From contig QIHI01000058.1 in assembly GCA_003230915.1 (NCBI GenBank), forward strand, positions 1 through 47,294: 47,294 nt of DNA, written 5' to 3'. Position numbers and translations under genes: made by a program. Below the pieces are notes generated by a model that was given only the letters and a program-made list of their open reading frames with translations, searched no databases and had not been told where the DNA came from. This document shows, in pieces, positions 3,206 to 45,777 of the stretch (the first letter of the stretch is position 1; each line of letters starts with the position of its first letter). Source of the stretch: Kiritimatiellales bacterium (GTDB lineage Bacteria; Verrucomicrobiota; Kiritimatiellia; Kiritimatiellales; Pontiellaceae).

Positions 3206-4615
3206 ATGCTCGAAATCATCTATATTATTTTCATGATGCTATTCCTTTTCGGAATCACCATTTTCGTCCATGAATGGGGGCACTTCATTGTCGCCAAAAA
3301 ATGCGGTTTGGTGATTGAAGCCTTCTCCATCGGCATGGGGCCTGCCCTCTGGAAAAAGGAGATTGATGGCATTGTCTACAAGATCGGCGCCTTTCCTATC
3401 GGCGGCTACGTCTCCCTTCCCCAGCTCGATCCTTCTGGCATGGAAAAGGTTCAAGGCGACAACAACGAGGGCGACCGTACAACCATGCCCGATATCTCGC
3501 CGTGGAAAAAGATCGCCGTCGCCGTCGCCGGCCCCTTCTGCAACATTGTTTTTGCCCTGTTCCTCGCTACGATCATCACCCTCTCTCCGGATGATGGATT
3601 TGCTGAAGAAAACGGTGTGTTTGTGGCTCAGGTCGAGACAGATAGTGAAGCGTATGCCGCAGGATTGCGCGATGGAGATAAAATCAAGGCCGTTAATGGA
3701 AACTCTGTCTTGAGCTGGTACGAAACCCGAGTGGAGTGCCTTCTCGGTGGAGGGGATGCGCAGGAGGTTGAGCTGAGCGTCTACAATGCTACCGATGGCG
3801 AACGTTTGATAACGGTCCCGGTGAACCATCCTGATAAATCTGACGATTTAATGAATGGAGTCTATCCAGCCTCTCCCTGCCAAGTACTGCAGGTTATTGC
3901 GGGAAGTCCTGCCGATAAATCCGGACTTTCCCCCGATGATATACTCATCAGCTTCGATGGAATCATGATCCAGGGAACATCACATTTCGTTGATCTGGTT
4001 CAAGCCAACCCCGACACAGAATCTCCCCTTATCGTCGAGCGCGACGGAGAAGCCTTTACTCTGATGGTCACTCCGGAATATGACGAAGCCAACGACAAGG
4101 TTATGATTGGCATCCAGTTTGGCGGGGCGCTTTCCCTGCCTTGGACACTGACCGGAAACCCTATAGCACAGATTAACAGCGATGCCTCCTCCATCTTCCG
4201 ATTACTCAAAGCCCTCACCACACCGGGTGAATCCAAACAAGCTGCAAGCGGCCTTGGTGGACCAGTAGCCATCTTTACAATGATCTGGATCTCTCTAAAA
4301 ATGAGCCTCCTTACGGCCATCGGGCTTATCCGCTTCATCAATATTAACCTCGCGGTGCTCAACCTTTTGCCGCTACCGGTGCTCGATGGCGGGCACATCT
4401 GCTTCGCACTCTGGGAAGGTATCACCCGCCGCAAGGTGCATCCGCAGGTGGTCACTTCGCTGGTCAGCGTCTTCGCCATCCTACTTATCTCCGCCATGCT
4501 CTTCCTCTCTTGGCGCGATCTCGACCGCAACTGGAACGTCAGCCGCTTCTTCAAGAAAGCAATGCCAACAGAACCGATAACGATTCCCGCTAGCGAACCG
4601 CAGAATCCCGAATAA
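3206..4615 (+). CDS. rseP: RIP zinc metalloprotease RseP (site-2 protease)
   Basis: This intramembrane protease cleaves anti-sigma factors and leftover signal peptides within the inner membrane. The 469-residue protein has HEWGH at residues 22-26 in the first membrane helix. Two PDZ-like regions follow (about 130-200 and 225-300), and the second metal-ligand motif NLLPLPVLDGGH lies near residues 385-397. It lies directly after cdsA; in many bacteria dxr lies between these two, but here it is absent. The last codons (SEPQNPE and stop) fall inside a heptad repeat element that begins at 4595, so the C-terminal tail may have been acquired from that repeat. Confidence 0.95.
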   Translation: MLEIIYIIFMMLFLFGITIFVHEWGHFIVAKKCGLVIEAFSIGMGPALWKKEIDGIVYKIGAFPIGGYVSLPQLDPSGMEKVQGDNNEGDRTTMPDISPWKKIAVAVAGPFCNIVFALFLATIITLSPDDGFAEENGVFVAQVETDSEAYAAGLRDGDKIKAVNGNSVLSWYETRVECLLGGGDAQEVELSVYNATDGERLITVPVNHPDKSDDLMNGVYPASPCQVLQVIAGSPADKSGLSPDDILISFDGIMIQGTSHFVDLVQANPDTESPLIVERDGEAFTLMVTPEYDEANDKVMIGIQFGGALSLPWTLTGNPIAQINSDASSIFRLLKALTTPGESKQAASGLGGPVAIFTMIWISLKMSLLTAIGLIRFININLAVLNLLPLPVLDGGHICFALWEGITRRKVHPQVVTSLVSVFAILLISAMLFLSWRDLDRNWNVSRFFKKAMPTEPITIPASEPQNPE

Positions 4616-4682
4616 CGAAAATCGAACCGCGGGAGGAAGCCCTCTTCTTCAATCGACATTCCCTTTTTGATATTCGATATTC
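4595..4682 (+). repeat. Degenerate heptad element, GAAnnnn array then nnnnTTC array (copy A)
   Basis: The element opens with the octamer GAACCGCA (4595-4602). GAATCCC, GAATAAC, GAAAATC and GAACCGC then follow in strict 7-base steps (4603-4630). After a middle segment, the inverted word nnnnTTC appears at 4655-4661, 4669-4675 and 4676-4682 on a 7-base grid. The direct and inverted arrays make the element roughly palindromic. It overlaps the rseP stop codon (4613-4615) and ends 5 bases before the next gene. The 7-base period rules out codon bias as the cause. See also 43766-43849, 34857-34891, 14326-14377 and 22647-22692. Confidence 0.75.
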
Positions 4683-4687
4683 GCTTT

Positions 4688-5056
4688 ATGAAGCGTAACT
4701 ACAAAAAGAAGTTTCAGTTCGACACCAAGAAGATCGGAATGGGGCTGTTTACGTTTTTTGTTGTTTTTGTGGCCTTCCGAATCATGACGCCACCGAGTAC
4801 CGAGATGGCGGTGATCGAGTCGCCGGACGGGAGCAAGAGTGCGCGGCTGCGGAAATTTTACTATATCTCCCAGCCTTCCTATAAAGTCTACTACCGTGAG
4901 TCTGGAAAAAATATTTGGCTCAATCTGCTCTACCTGCAAAGCTACACCAACGTACCGCACCAAACCGCTGTGGAATCCATCGAATGGAGTCCCGACTCGG
5001 AAGAACTTTATTTCAAAATCAATGGTACCTCCATCTGGTCGCACGTCTTTGAGTAG
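4688..5056 (+). CDS. Membrane-anchored hypothetical protein with propeller-like strand motif
   Basis: I do not recognise a named family. The 122-residue product starts with a basic stretch (MKRNYKKKF) and has one hydrophobic segment at about residues 18-35, consistent with a type II membrane anchor. The rest is a soluble domain containing ESPDGSKSARL and WSPDSEELYFKING, which resemble single blades of TolB-type or WD40-like beta-propellers. One or two blades cannot form a closed propeller, so it may be a fragment or a small strand-rich fold. I chose the ATG at 4688 over an in-frame TTG at 4667 that lies inside the repeat. It is downstream of rseP and may be read through from that operon. Confidence 0.7.
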   Translation: MKRNYKKKFQFDTKKIGMGLFTFFVVFVAFRIMTPPSTEMAVIESPDGSKSARLRKFYYISQPSYKVYYRESGKNIWLNLLYLQSYTNVPHQTAVESIEWSPDSEELYFKINGTSIWSHVFE

Positions 5057-14325: not shown

Positions 14326-14377
14326 GTGACGAGTGATTCATGATTAAAAGTTCACGGCTCACGTTTCACGACTCACT
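14326..14377. repeat. Degenerate heptad element, GTGAnnn array then nnnTCAC array (copy D)
   Basis: GTGACGA (14326), GTGATTC (14333) and ATGATTA (14340) are followed by AAA. GTTCACG (14350), GCTCACG (14357), TTTCACG (14364) and ACTCACT (14371) come next, all on a 7-base grid. The second set is the reverse complement of the first word. The build is the same as the GAA/TTC elements but with a different core word. It lies in the divergent gltX-hpt gap. Confidence 0.7.
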
Positions 14378-20831: not shown

Positions 20832-22631
20832 CTACTCCGCTTCGACGGTTTCCTCTTTTTCCGCTTTCTTTGGCAGGTTGAGCTTAAGGTGTAGATCACG
20901 GAGTTGGTTGTGTTCAACGTTTCCGGGTGCTCCCATAAGCAAGTCCTGCGCACGCTGGTTCATCGGGAAAGCAATGACCTCGCGAATATTCGGCTCGTCG
21001 GCCAACAGCATTACAATGCGGTCAACGCCGGGGGCGATGCCCGCATGCGGTGGAGCACCGTATTGGAAGGCACGGTGGAGCGCCGGGAATTTGGCTTCGA
21101 CGACCGACTGGTCGTAGCCAGCGATATCGAATGCCTTGACCATGAGTTCCGGGTTATGGTTCCGCACCGCACCGGAGGATAGCTCGGTTCCGTTGCAGAC
21201 GATGTCATATTGGAACGCGAGAATATCGAGCGGGGCTTTTTCTTCGATATCCTTCATACCACCCTGCGGCATAGAGAACGGATTGTGACTGAACTCCACC
21301 TTGCCTTCATCATCGAGTTCGTACATCGGGAAATCGACAATCCAACAAAACTTGAAAACATCGGGGTCGATGAGTTCGAGGCGCTGGCCGAGTTCGTCGC
21401 GAACGGCTGCTCCGATTTCGTTGGCACCCTTGAGTTTATCGGCGATGAAAAACATGACGTCGCCGTCACCCACTCCTCCTAACTCCTTGATCTGAGCGAG
21501 CGTTTCATCGGAAAGGAACTTGGCGATCGGGCTTTGCACCTCGCCGTCGATCCAGCGCAGATAGCCGAGTCCCTTGGCTCCTACGGACTGGGCAAACTTG
21601 ATCATGTCGTCAAAAAACTTGCGCGACTTTCCGGCGCACCCCTTGGCAGCGATGGTCTTGACGACGCCGCCGGAAGCAACAACACCGGCAAAAGCCTTGA
21701 AGTCGCAGTCGCGGAACAGCTCGGTAGCATCCTGCATAATGAGCGGGTTACGCAGGTCGGGCTTGTCGGAGCCATATTTTTCCATGGCTTCGAGGAAGGG
21801 AAGGCGCAGGAACGGCGGCTTATCAACCTGCTTATCGGAAAACTCGGTGAAGAGTTTGTAGAGTACTTCTTCATTCACCTCAAACACATCATCCTGCGTG
21901 GCAAAGGCCATTTCCATATCGAGCTGGTAAAACTCGCCCGGCGAACGGTCGGCGCGGGCGTCTTCGTCGCGGAAGCACGGGGCGATCTGGAAGTAGCGGT
22001 CGAAGCCGGAGGTCATGAGCAACTGTTTAAACTGCTGCGGAGCCTGCGGCAATGCATAGAATTTTCCGGGATGCACGCGGCTCGGCACCAGGTAGTCGCG
22101 CGCGCCTTCAGGCGAACTGTTGGTGAGAATCGGGGTCTGAATTTCCATAAAGCCCAATCCAGTCATCAGCTCACGCATGCGGGAAATAACCTTGGAGCGC
22201 AGGATGATATTGTTGTGCAAGCTCTGGCGGCGCAGGTCGAGGAAGCGGTATTCAAGGCGCAGCGTTTCGTTGCACTCTTCGTCTTTGGCCACCTGAAATG
22301 GAATGACGGCGGCTTCGCCGAGTAGCTCCATCTCCTCGGCCACGACTTCAATTTCGCCGGTGGCTAATTTCGAATTGACGGCTTCCGGAATACGGGAAAC
22401 GACTTTACCGATGAAGCAGACCGTACTTTCGACACGCCAGTGTTCGACGCCTTTGTAGAAGGGTTGCGAGGGGTCGATCACGATCTGAGTCAAACCATAG
22501 TGGTCGCGCAGGTCAATAAAGAGGATTCCACCGTGATCACGGACGCTGTTGATCCATCCGGAAATTTTGACGGTTTGGTCGATGTTCTCCTTTCCGAGTT
22601 CACCGCAAGTATGTGTTCTGTAACGATGCAT
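20832..22631 (-). CDS. aspS: Aspartyl-tRNA synthetase
   Basis: This class II synthetase charges tRNA-Asp. The 599-residue protein has the N-terminal OB-fold anticodon domain (VKISGWINSVRDHGGILFIDLRD is its core). Motif 2 lies around FRDEDARADRSPGEFYQLDME. The large bacterial GAD insertion lies at about residues 290-420, and motif 3 is in GIAPGVDRIVMLL. Length fits the bacterial type (about 590). The C-terminus carries a Lys/Glu-rich tail. It lies 49 bases downstream of hisS with a heptad repeat element in the gap. AspRS specificity (strict or also Asn) cannot be read with confidence. Confidence 0.96.
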   Translation of the reverse strand: MHRYRTHTCGELGKENIDQTVKISGWINSVRDHGGILFIDLRDHYGLTQIVIDPSQPFYKGVEHWRVESTVCFIGKVVSRIPEAVNSKLATGEIEVVAEEMELLGEAAVIPFQVAKDEECNETLRLEYRFLDLRRQSLHNNIILRSKVISRMRELMTGLGFMEIQTPILTNSSPEGARDYLVPSRVHPGKFYALPQAPQQFKQLLMTSGFDRYFQIAPCFRDEDARADRSPGEFYQLDMEMAFATQDDVFEVNEEVLYKLFTEFSDKQVDKPPFLRLPFLEAMEKYGSDKPDLRNPLIMQDATELFRDCDFKAFAGVVASGGVVKTIAAKGCAGKSRKFFDDMIKFAQSVGAKGLGYLRWIDGEVQSPIAKFLSDETLAQIKELGGVGDGDVMFFIADKLKGANEIGAAVRDELGQRLELIDPDVFKFCWIVDFPMYELDDEGKVEFSHNPFSMPQGGMKDIEEKAPLDILAFQYDIVCNGTELSSGAVRNHNPELMVKAFDIAGYDQSVVEAKFPALHRAFQYGAPPHAGIAPGVDRIVMLLADEPNIREVIAFPMNQRAQDLLMGAPGNVEHNQLRDLHLKLNLPKKAEKEETVEAE

Positions 22632-22646
22632 ATTCTTCTCCTAAAC

Positions 22647-22692
22647 TAATTCGTAATACGTAACGGGTAATGCGTAATCATTACGAATTACG
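22647..22692. repeat. Degenerate heptad element, TAATnCG array then nATTACG array (copy E)
   Basis: TAATTCG (22647), TAATACG (22654), TAACGGG (22661), TAATGCG (22668) and TAATCAT (22675) lie on a 7-base grid. The inverted words CATTACG (22679) and AATTACG (22686) follow. The element fills the hisS-aspS gap and runs into hisS. The last hisS residues (VRNS) and its TAA stop (22683-22681) are encoded by element words, as at rseP. Confidence 0.72.
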
Positions 22693-23925
22693 CACTATGT
22701 CTTCTAGGTTCATCTCTTCCTGCGAGCCTTCTTCCATATTCTTAACGATGACGGTTCCTTTTGTGAGTTCGTCTTCGCCGCGGATAATAACTTTTTCAGC
22801 GCCTTCGCGGTTGGCCTTTCGCATTTGCGCTTTCATGCTTTTGGCGGCCAACTCCATGCCGCAGCGAACGCCCTTGTTGCGTAGTTCGCGCGCGAGCTTC
22901 ATATTCTCGGCGAGCGCGGCTTCACCTAGCGAAATCAGCCAGGTTCCACCCTCCGGTACAAACTGGTCGGCGGTGATTCCACACGCTTCGAGCGCGGTGA
23001 TTACCCGTTCAATGCCCATGGCGAAACCGACGCCGGGAATGCCTTTTTTCCCGAGGGCGATTTCGTAGCGACCGCCGCCGGCGATGGCGTTCTGTGCCCC
23101 AAGCGCGCCGTGGGTGATTTCCCATACGGTGTGGACATAATAGTCCAGTCCACGTACGAGGCTACGGTCGTATTCAACCACCACACCCATTTTGGAGAGG
23201 GTTTCGATGACGGTATTTAGATAGTCCTGCGATTCCTTCGTCATGAACGAACGCATTTCCGGGAGTGTTGCCGCAATTTCTTTACACTTGGGATTCTTGC
23301 AGTCGATCACACGCAGTACATTTTCATCCATCCGCCGTTGGCAATCTTCACACAGACTAGAGCGTGAAGGTTCAAGTAGCCTTTGCAGATTTTCGGCGAT
23401 CAATTTTTGATCTTCTTTCGTGCCGCGACTGTTGATCTTGATCGTGGAATCGGTAAGCCCCCAGACTTCAAGTAGGTTTTGCTGCAGGGCGATGCATTCG
23501 GCATCGGCCAGCGGGTTCGGCTCGCCGGTGGCCTCGACACCGACCTGATGGAACTGCCGTTTGCGGCCTGCCTGCGGACGTTCGCAGCGAAACATCGGTG
23601 CCATGTAGAACACGCGAGCGTTCAAACCCTCTTCGCCGCGACCGGCCAAATGGCGAATCGTTCCAGCGGTACCTTCGGGGCGCAAGGCCAGCTCGCGGCC
23701 GCCACGATCCTTAAAAGCATACATCTCCTTTTGCACCACGTCGGTCGTGTCGCCGATCGAACGCTTGAAGACGGAGAGCTTTTCGAGCGACGGGGTACGA
23801 AGCTCCTCATAGCCATAGCTATTGAACAACGTGCGGGCGCGTTCTTCGATCATGCGCCAAAGGTAGATCTCCGGTGCATAGAGATCCGACATGCCTTGAA
23901 GGGATTGAAACTCGGTGGAAGCCAT
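22681..23925 (-). CDS. hisS: Histidyl-tRNA synthetase
   Basis: This class II synthetase charges tRNA-His. The 414-residue protein has motif 1 near the N-terminus, motif 2 in FRCERPQAGRKRQFHQVGVE, the histidine-specific block VRGLDYYVHTVWEI, and AGGRYE. The anticodon-binding domain with KSMKAQMRKANREGAEKVIIRGEDEL is at the C-terminus. Length is typical. It is in the run HU gene, hisS, aspS on the minus strand. The last few residues come from a heptad repeat element, so the natural C-terminus may once have been slightly different. Confidence 0.95.
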   Translation of the reverse strand: MASTEFQSLQGMSDLYAPEIYLWRMIEERARTLFNSYGYEELRTPSLEKLSVFKRSIGDTTDVVQKEMYAFKDRGGRELALRPEGTAGTIRHLAGRGEEGLNARVFYMAPMFRCERPQAGRKRQFHQVGVEATGEPNPLADAECIALQQNLLEVWGLTDSTIKINSRGTKEDQKLIAENLQRLLEPSRSSLCEDCQRRMDENVLRVIDCKNPKCKEIAATLPEMRSFMTKESQDYLNTVIETLSKMGVVVEYDRSLVRGLDYYVHTVWEITHGALGAQNAIAGGGRYEIALGKKGIPGVGFAMGIERVITALEACGITADQFVPEGGTWLISLGEAALAENMKLARELRNKGVRCGMELAAKSMKAQMRKANREGAEKVIIRGEDELTKGTVIVKNMEEGSQEEMNLEDIVRNS

Positions 23926-43730: not shown

Positions 43731-43765
43731 GGATATGTCTCTCCTTTGTTTGGTTACACTCTGTT

Positions 43766-43849
43766 GAATTACGAACATTGAACAAGGAATGCCGAATGAT
43801 GAAGGTTCTCTTCAGAATCCATTATTCCCTGTTCGTTATTCTGCGGTTC
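43766..43849. repeat. Degenerate heptad element, GAAnnnn array then nnnnTTC array (copy B)
   Basis: Six words GAATTAC, GAACATT, GAACAAG, GAATGCC, GAATGAT and GAAGGTT run in 7-base steps from 43766 to 43807. After 13 bases the inverted words ATTATTC, CCTGTTC and GTTATTC follow at 43821-43841. The octamer TGCGGTTC (43842-43849) then closes the element. Read on the minus strand the element starts GAACCGCAGAAT, as copy A does, and abuts the dnaK stop codon (TAG shares its G). It fills the dnaK-groS gap. Confidence 0.78.
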
Positions 43850-45777
43850 TACTTCTTATCTTCGTCGACCATTTCAAAATCGGCTTCCTCGACGTCACTG
43901 GCCTGCTTTTCGCCACCACCGGCTCCGGCCTCCGCTCCCATATCTGGAGCACCCTCTGCACCCGGCTGAGCCTGCGCATACATTTCCGTCGCGGCGGCCT
44001 GCATTTTTTCGTTCAAAATGTCGAGCGTCGTCTTCATCGCATCGTAGTCCTCGGCTTCGACCGCCTTTTTAACAGGCTCGATTGCAGCTTCGACCTCGGC
44101 CTTCTGTTCGGCGGAAACCTTGTCCTCGTTTTCCTTCAGGAATTTTTCCGTCTGGAACACGGTGGAGTCCGCCTGGTTTTTCAGGTCGACCTTCTCGCGT
44201 AGTTTTTCATCTTCGGCCGCATGAGACTCGGCGTCTTTCACCATCCGATCCACTTCCTCATCGGACAAGCCGCTCGAATCTGTGATGGTAATATGTTGCG
44301 ATTTCCCCGTCCCCAGATCCTTCGCGCTGACCTTGACGATGCCGTTGGCATCGATGTCGAACGTTACTTCAATCTGCGGCGTACCGCGCGGAGCCTGCGG
44401 AATACCATCGAGGTTAAAACGATCAAGCGTTTTGTTGGCTGCAGCCATCTTGCGCTCACCCTGCAACACGTGGATTTCCACGGCGGGCTGATTGTCGGCG
44501 GCGGTCGAGAAGATCTCGTTCTTCTTGGCTGGAATGGTGGTGTTGCGTTCAATCAGCGGAGTGAATACGCCCCCCATGGTTTCAATACCCAGCGTCAGCG
44601 GAGTCACATCGAGAAGAAGAACATCCTTCACTTCACCTTTAAGAACCCCGCCCTGGATCGAAGCACCGATCGAAACCACTTCATCCGGGTTCACACCCTT
44701 GTGCGGCTCCTGACCAAAGATTTCCTTCACGGAATCCTGCACTTTCGGCATACGGGTGGAACCCCCCACCAAGATCACTTCATTGATTTCCGAAGCACTC
44801 AGGCCAGAGTCGGTCAAACAAGTACGTACCGGCGCAATGGCCTTGGTGATCAGGTCGTCGCAGAGTTCCTCAAGCTTGGCGCGACTGAGCGTCATGTTCA
44901 AGTGTTTCGGCCCGCTGGCATCCGCCGTGATGAACGGCAGATTGATCTCGGTCGACTGCGAGCTGGAAAGCTCGCACTTTGCTTTTTCGCCCGCTTCCTT
45001 CAGGCGTTGAAGTACCATCGGATCGGCGGAAAGGTCTACGCCCTGATCTTGTTTGAACTCGCTCACGAGCCAATCGATAATTTTTTGGTCGAAGTCGTCA
45101 CCGCCAAGATGGCCGTCACCGCTCGTTGCGGTTACTTCGAAAACGCCGTCGCCGATGTCGAGGATCGACACGTCAAACGTGCCGCCGCCAAGGTCGTAGA
45201 TCGCAATCTTCTCTTCCGACTTCTTGTCGAGGCCATACGCCAGCGACGCCGCAGTCGGCTCATTGATGATACGCAGTACTTCAAGGCCGGCAATCTTGCC
45301 TGCGTCCTTCGTAGCCTGACGCTGAGAATCGTTAAAGTAGGCCGGCACCGTGATGACCACCTGCGAAACCGTCTCGCCGAGATAAGCCTCTGCGTCCGTC
45401 TTCATCTTCTGGAGAATCATCGCCGAGATTTCCGGCGGAGAATACACCTTATCATCGATCTTAACGTGGGCGTCGCCATTCTTGGCCTTCACCACGTTGT
45501 AGGGAACCAGATGGATCTCGTGCTCCACCTCGTCAAACTTACGGCCCATGAAACGTTTGATCGAGAAAACCGTGTGTTGCGGGTTGGTTACCGCCTGACG
45601 CTTCGCCGCAGTACCGACCAAACGTTCGCCACTCTTCGTGAATGCCACAATCGATGGCGTGGTGCGTCCACCTTCCGCGTTCGGGATAACGGTTGGCTCG
45701 CCGCCTTCCATCACAGCCATGCATGAATTCGTGGTACCGAGGTCGATACCCAATACTTTAGATCCTGCTGTACTCAT
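43849..45777 (-). CDS. dnaK: Chaperone protein DnaK (Hsp70)
   Basis: DnaK binds exposed hydrophobic peptides in an ATP cycle driven by DnaJ and GrpE. The 642-residue protein has [18 protein letters not shown] at the N-terminus, [20 protein letters not shown]-like [31 protein letters not shown], and [14 protein letters not shown]. The substrate-binding domain contains [15 protein letters not shown], and an acidic C-terminal tail ends EMVDEDKK. Length matches the family. It has a good ribosome binding site (AGGAG). It lies upstream of groS-groL on the same strand, away from grpE-dnaJ. Confidence 0.98.

Follow-up and report, generated by a model that had tools for sequence, protein, structure and literature searches.

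A palindrome of seven-nucleotide units writes the end of hisS in a Kiritimatiellales bacterium and may have changed its word in place among related species

What is maintained in an array of 7-nt units that runs over the end of a gene? This question is raised by the hisS-aspS junction in a stretch of 47,294 nucleotides (contig QIHI01000058.1; referred to here as the window), where the original prediction placed a heptad element with the word TAATnCG and proposed that the period and the symmetry, not a base sequence, are maintained. We know of no settled reason for the period of seven in bacterial heptanucleotide repeats. The source genome (G000) is a 1.9-Mb draft. In the collection that was searched, the nearest relatives with a name are Pontiella and Kiritimatiellales MAGs, and therefore the organism is treated as belonging to Pontiella or to a genus close to it.

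Family models confirm aspS (aspartate--tRNA ligase; 20832-22631) and hisS (histidine--tRNA ligase; 22684-23925, or 22681-23925 including the stop codon), both on the minus strand. At 22647-22697, 7-nt units form an imperfect palindrome, TAATTCG TAATACG TAACGGG TAATGCG TAAT / ATTACGAATTACGC. On the plus strand from 22647, four heptads are followed by TAATCAT and then by TACGAATTACGCAC, which is the inverted arm with the same word. The element extends to about 22697, slightly past the originally given end at 22692. The aspS-side arm (22647-22678), which was reported by TRF as a period-7 array, corresponds to the 3' arm of a predicted mRNA hairpin and contains the signature GTAACGGGTAATGCGTAAT. 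The inverted hisS-side arm (22679-22697; ATTACGAATTACGCAC...) corresponds to the 5' arm and overlaps the final hisS codons. Seen from hisS, the units carry the word GTAATnC, in which a single letter is free. The last hisS codons, gtg cgt aat tcg TAA (22681-22695, minus strand), fall in this arm. This means that the residues VRNS and the stop codon are written by the element, as had been claimed. The aspS ribosome-binding site, AGGAG (22638-22642, minus strand), comes immediately after the element.

The heptad pattern at this junction was confirmed to exceed chance. When the window was simulated 200 times with a second-order Markov model, its top lag-7 score, 23/35, was matched twice, and a 4-mer at four successive 7-nt steps occurred twice in the window versus once in 200 simulated windows. 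In tests of fixed length, since a threshold scaled to the period would be unfair, a 3-mer repeated five times at fixed spacing gave five cases for period 7 in 415 kb of G000, six in the relative G021 and one in the relative G005; the same three sequences gave none for periods 5, 8, 10, 11, 13, 14 and 16, and one for period 17. Thus 7-nt units are in excess over other periods, as in the heptanucleotide SSR/STRR class, with G000's own units being degenerate.

The element is also predicted to fold in the message. On the mRNA-sense strand, the segment 22630-22710 gave -20.8 kcal/mol with a z of -4.25, which was equalled by none of 200 shuffles; the plus strand folded with DNA parameters did less well (z of -2.6). 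The predicted hairpin (22654-22697, minus strand) consists of two stems with a 2x2 internal loop. Together with the sequence, the TRF array and the simulations, this fold indicates that the predicted heptad element over the hisS 3' end is real. Two identities were rejected for the hairpin. An intrinsic terminator of hisS (a GC-rich stem followed by a T run) had no match on the gene strand, the only match being antisense, on the plus strand, in a number as by chance. A known RNA family was ruled out by an Rfam search, which gave three chance-level matches, all far below the cut-offs, and no T-box.

In addition, hisS and its downstream DNA were compared in same-genus genomes and one outgroup family. 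The word at the junction is GTAATnC in G000, G010, G009 and G005, GTATTnC in G012 and G006, and GTGAnnC in G021, G001 and G016; G004 and G023 have more decayed forms of the last, and the elements of G020 and G018 are degenerate. The words differ between species by about one base per unit, and as a rule both arms are alike. The element is absent in G008, G007, G024, G019 and the outgroup family, and the hisS-aspS distance is 8-12 nt in the first three of these. These four same-genus genomes have complete junctions and other hisS C-termini; none of the four had the same C-terminus without heptads. In all 12 aligned element-bearing species, the hisS stop codon is at the identical nucleotide and the hisS-side units are in a common register. 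The stop codon is TAA with GTAATnC, TAG with GTATTnC and TGA with GTGAnnC in the 11 classable species. As the stop codon lies inside a unit, this match restates the change of word, and the word can also be read from the other arm alone. It should be mentioned that in G021, G001 and G016 (L052, L054, L058) the GTGA arms surround a second palindrome, TTCCAA...TTGGAA. The TTTCCAACCATTGGAAA found after rseP in G001 (L196) resembles this inner palindrome, and thus the palindromes nest.

How, then, did one site come to carry three words? Placing the words on the hisS protein tree, in which support is weak for several branches, requires at least five changes; when presence is counted together with the word, the minimum is eight. 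The GTATT elements of G012 and G006, which are not sister species, have details in common, and this is also true of the GTAAT elements in G000 and G010. Conversion, transfer or re-insertion therefore fit these elements as well as independent drift does. The patchy distribution of words on the tree and the likeness of G012 and G006 favour the main rival to rewriting in place, namely that the gap is a hot spot or a tolerant landing site, where REP/MITE-like palindromes of several word families insert, vanish and get replaced. At hisS, the single register and the fixed position of the stop codon in 12 species speak against such repeated insertion, as do the words being only about one base per unit apart and the existence of mixed arrays; in the loci read, a target duplication or a mobilising gene was not identified. 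We consider repeated insertion rather unlikely on balance. As to an association with the 23S rRNA intervening-sequence protein, its profile PF05635 was unmatched in this genome and likewise in the control genomes, so that the lack of a match carries no weight.

The relatives also bear on a role of the hairpin itself. A hairpin is predicted with each of the three words, and a z of -3 or lower was obtained in 8 of 10 species, with that of G016 being weaker. In the hisS element of G005 the left arm is lost, and because of this the hairpin is not predicted (z of -0.2); this means that the hairpin is not indispensable. In a consensus fold across the species 16 pairs were retained and 9 were changed on both sides, which is supportive and no test, since the alignment was a plain MAFFT one in which related sequences are counted repeatedly. 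These compensatory changes and the placement of the hairpin, which follows one gene's stop codon and precedes the ribosome-binding site of the next gene, would agree with a selected RNA device that separates the translation of hisS and aspS or sets mRNA decay, the words drifting because only the pairing matters. Several species are without the element and one without an arm, and neither a known family nor a gene-strand terminator was matched. Furthermore, selection for pairing alone would leave the 7-nt period and the identical cores in each unit unexplained. Such a device therefore seems improbable as the main explanation.

Elements of the same architecture with other words are found at three further sites in the window, in agreement with the likeness to GAA elements that had been noted: a GAAnnnC / TTCGATA heptad element over the rseP stop codon (4594-4692), a GTGAnnC element upstream of gltX (14330-14375), and GAA heptads with GAACAAGGAAT between dnaK and groES (43764-43856). 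When word classes were assigned by eye at these junctions in the relatives, the gltX junction had the same three words as hisS, the rseP junction had GAATATC or AATCCA words or nothing, and the dnaK-groES gap had several unrelated words or cores. Thus the rseP 3' end, to which that of hisS had been likened, behaves like the latter in that its words differ between species. The words of hisS and gltX agree in 6 of the 8 species having both (permutation p 0.054), which hints at genome-wide word preferences. The unrelated words or cores in one dnaK-groES gap among related species are, in turn, a point in favour of repeated insertion. In that gap (L221-L242), some species have GAACAAGGAAT-type GAA heptads, and in others GATTTTTG/GATTGCC arms flank a core, GGAACNCNGTCGCCG, that is conserved. 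When 195 genomes were sampled from the phylum, the signature GAACANGGAATNNCGAA of the same gap was also present in 12.

The words of the hisS site recur genome-wide as dispersed inverted-repeat families, and the conserved signatures of these families again favour repeated insertion. The signature heptad GTRACGR, which covers the GTAAT and GTGA families, was found at 22 distinct loci versus none for a reversed-pattern control. Inverted symmetry of GTAATGC was seen in 16 of 38 cases versus 0 of 38 in both the reversed and the direct controls; the complement control is not independent, because this word is nearly its own reversal. Dispersed copies with a common consensus and inverted symmetry, as expected of REP/REPIN or MITE elements, are thus present. 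Whole-genome counts of overlapping units, which are not numbers of elements, were 52 GTATT and 1 GTAAT in G041, 17 GTATT and 71 GTAAT in G005, and 0 of either in G023 and G013. Heptads of like shape with other words (GTATCCC, GTGTCGC, GTGAATC) occur elsewhere in the class. Many phage or provirus contigs (L345-L384) carry GTGAnnC heptad arrays, which in the examples examined were mostly direct and often situated after one stop codon and ahead of the following start.

Within a unit, 5-6 of the 7 letters are fixed and 1-2 are free. A fixed core with free letters might be expected if a protein recognised 7-nt-spaced cores on DNA or RNA, and opposite-strand paired repeat arrays of Geobacter are annotated as putative global-regulator sites (PMC2700814). 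A sequence-specific binder should not tolerate a word that varies by species at one site and by site in one genome, and the genes adjoining the arrays have no common function. This possibility is considered very remote.

Comparison of the arms points to how the units are copied. When the two arms are compared, the cores are alike in 195 of 223 cases, and since many of these loci were fetched via one arm, the second arm was not preselected. In the GTAAT family, the free letters agree in 44 of 49 comparisons between neighbours within an arm and in 18 of 92 between arms. Likeness within arms, not between arms, is as expected of slippage inside the arms. Arm-to-arm copying should carry the free letters along, and thus pure arm-to-arm template copying is disfavoured. 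In the GTGA family, the free letters agree in only 5 of 26 comparisons between neighbouring units, so that some arrays do not have the look of recent slippage. In relatives, perfect arrays reach about 20 units; one long array of G005 lies at C3:253499-253555. The elements of G005 typically have one short arm, in which the free letters are mixed and the signature GTAACGRGTAATnCGTAAT is found, the other arm being a long uniform array. This signature is also inside the hisS element of G000.

Arrays of mixed composition were also found: TTACGCA and then TCACGCA units in L336, and, in L328, units of GTATT, GTAAT and GTGA. In 4 of 22 elements the two arms differed in their words or word sets. Arm pairs with unlike words occur in L331, L338 and L339, with GTAAT standing against GTGA in L331 and L338. 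Mixed arrays and unlike arm pairs show the words changing unit by unit; in a comparison that covered one genome per species, the mixed arrays are indirect evidence of slippage. In G023 (C143:9605-9738; L342), about 20 perfect GTGAGCC units are followed by a GAGAGCC block, which is a change of word within one array.

These comparisons partly support the claim that period and symmetry are maintained and the base sequence is free. The first part stands in that, at the orthologous hisS-aspS junctions, the word differs between species but the period of 7 nt is retained, together with the inverted symmetry and the position of the stop codon; the symmetry is not absolute, considering the lost arm of G005 and the elements with unlike arms. 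The second part does not hold as worded: the site carries only a few related words, each of them recurring genome-wide and two with GTRACGR, and most letters of the unit are fixed. What is maintained is the period, the symmetry and a family core, and this core turns over in concert.

The reading that we slightly favour overall is that of a heptanucleotide-microsatellite palindrome (unit CGTRWnn), a member of a dispersed family, which would be resident at hisS-aspS and homogenised in place by slippage with its hairpin retained. An ancestral copy might have been inserted into the gap within the genus, overwriting the hisS C-terminus. A single-base change in one unit would then spread along the array in 7-nt steps by slipped-strand copying. 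The other arm might be brought into line if other copies converted it, if template switching took place at the hairpin, or if pairing was under selection. Such a change would rewrite the hisS stop codon, giving TAA, TAG or TGA in the GTAAT, GTATT and GTGA species. The hairpin might be kept as a separator or stabiliser of the hisS and aspS messages, or might be a mere leftover of the copying process; this step is the least certain. A stronger form, which we regard as tentative and on the doubtful side, is that the copying process acts on period and symmetry and not on sequence, so that a base change in one unit reaches every other unit in both arms, the free letters are unconstrained, and the adjoining repeat switches an essential gene among the stop codons TAA, TAG and TGA. 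An array of stop codons in all frames (7 = 1 modulo 3) was rejected as the reason for the 7-nt unit, since by inspection GTATTnC, GAATATC and GATTTCC hold no stop codon.

Both heptanucleotide SSRs and REP/MITE-like palindromes are already known. The former have been described as the most abundant class of long SSRs in most surveyed genomes, with polymerase slippage as their supposed source (reviewed in PMC4679880). The present element shares with this SSR/STRR class the 7-nt unit, the multicopy and largely intergenic occurrence and slippage as the proposed source, but SSR/STRR are direct arrays of a preferred word, whereas here the arms are inverted, the units combine a fixed core and free letters, several words coexist and the word changes between species at one site. 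The element does not belong to the direct TAACTGA repeats known from Beggiatoaceae, cyanobacteria and Bacteroidetes (PMC4679880), because its word is GTAATnC and its arms are inverted. Like REP/REPIN, MITE-like elements and the Rickettsia palindromic elements, which are dispersed palindromes writing protein sequence (PMC2229807), it is a short dispersed hairpin-former in gene gaps that sometimes writes protein; unlike it, those elements have a family consensus and no tandem 7-nt make-up. In Geobacter metallireducens, multicopy heptamer arrays including Gmet_H4 and global-regulator sites are annotated (PMC2700814), and these resemble the present arrays in lying between and within genes, some paired on opposite strands, but they have other consensus words, and a change of word at orthologous sites is not described for them. 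In the literature searched, which covered few subscription papers, inverted heptad arrays in Pontiella or Kiritimatiellota are not described. Lineage-specific rewriting of all units in one resident hairpin, including a stop codon, was found nowhere in that literature.

The presence in one genus of an orthologous element with three words, of part-converted arrays elsewhere and of empty sites makes the turnover directly testable. Here an essential aminoacyl-tRNA synthetase has its C-terminus and its stop codon dictated by a repeat, and annotators should be warned that such C-terminal residues derive from the repeat.
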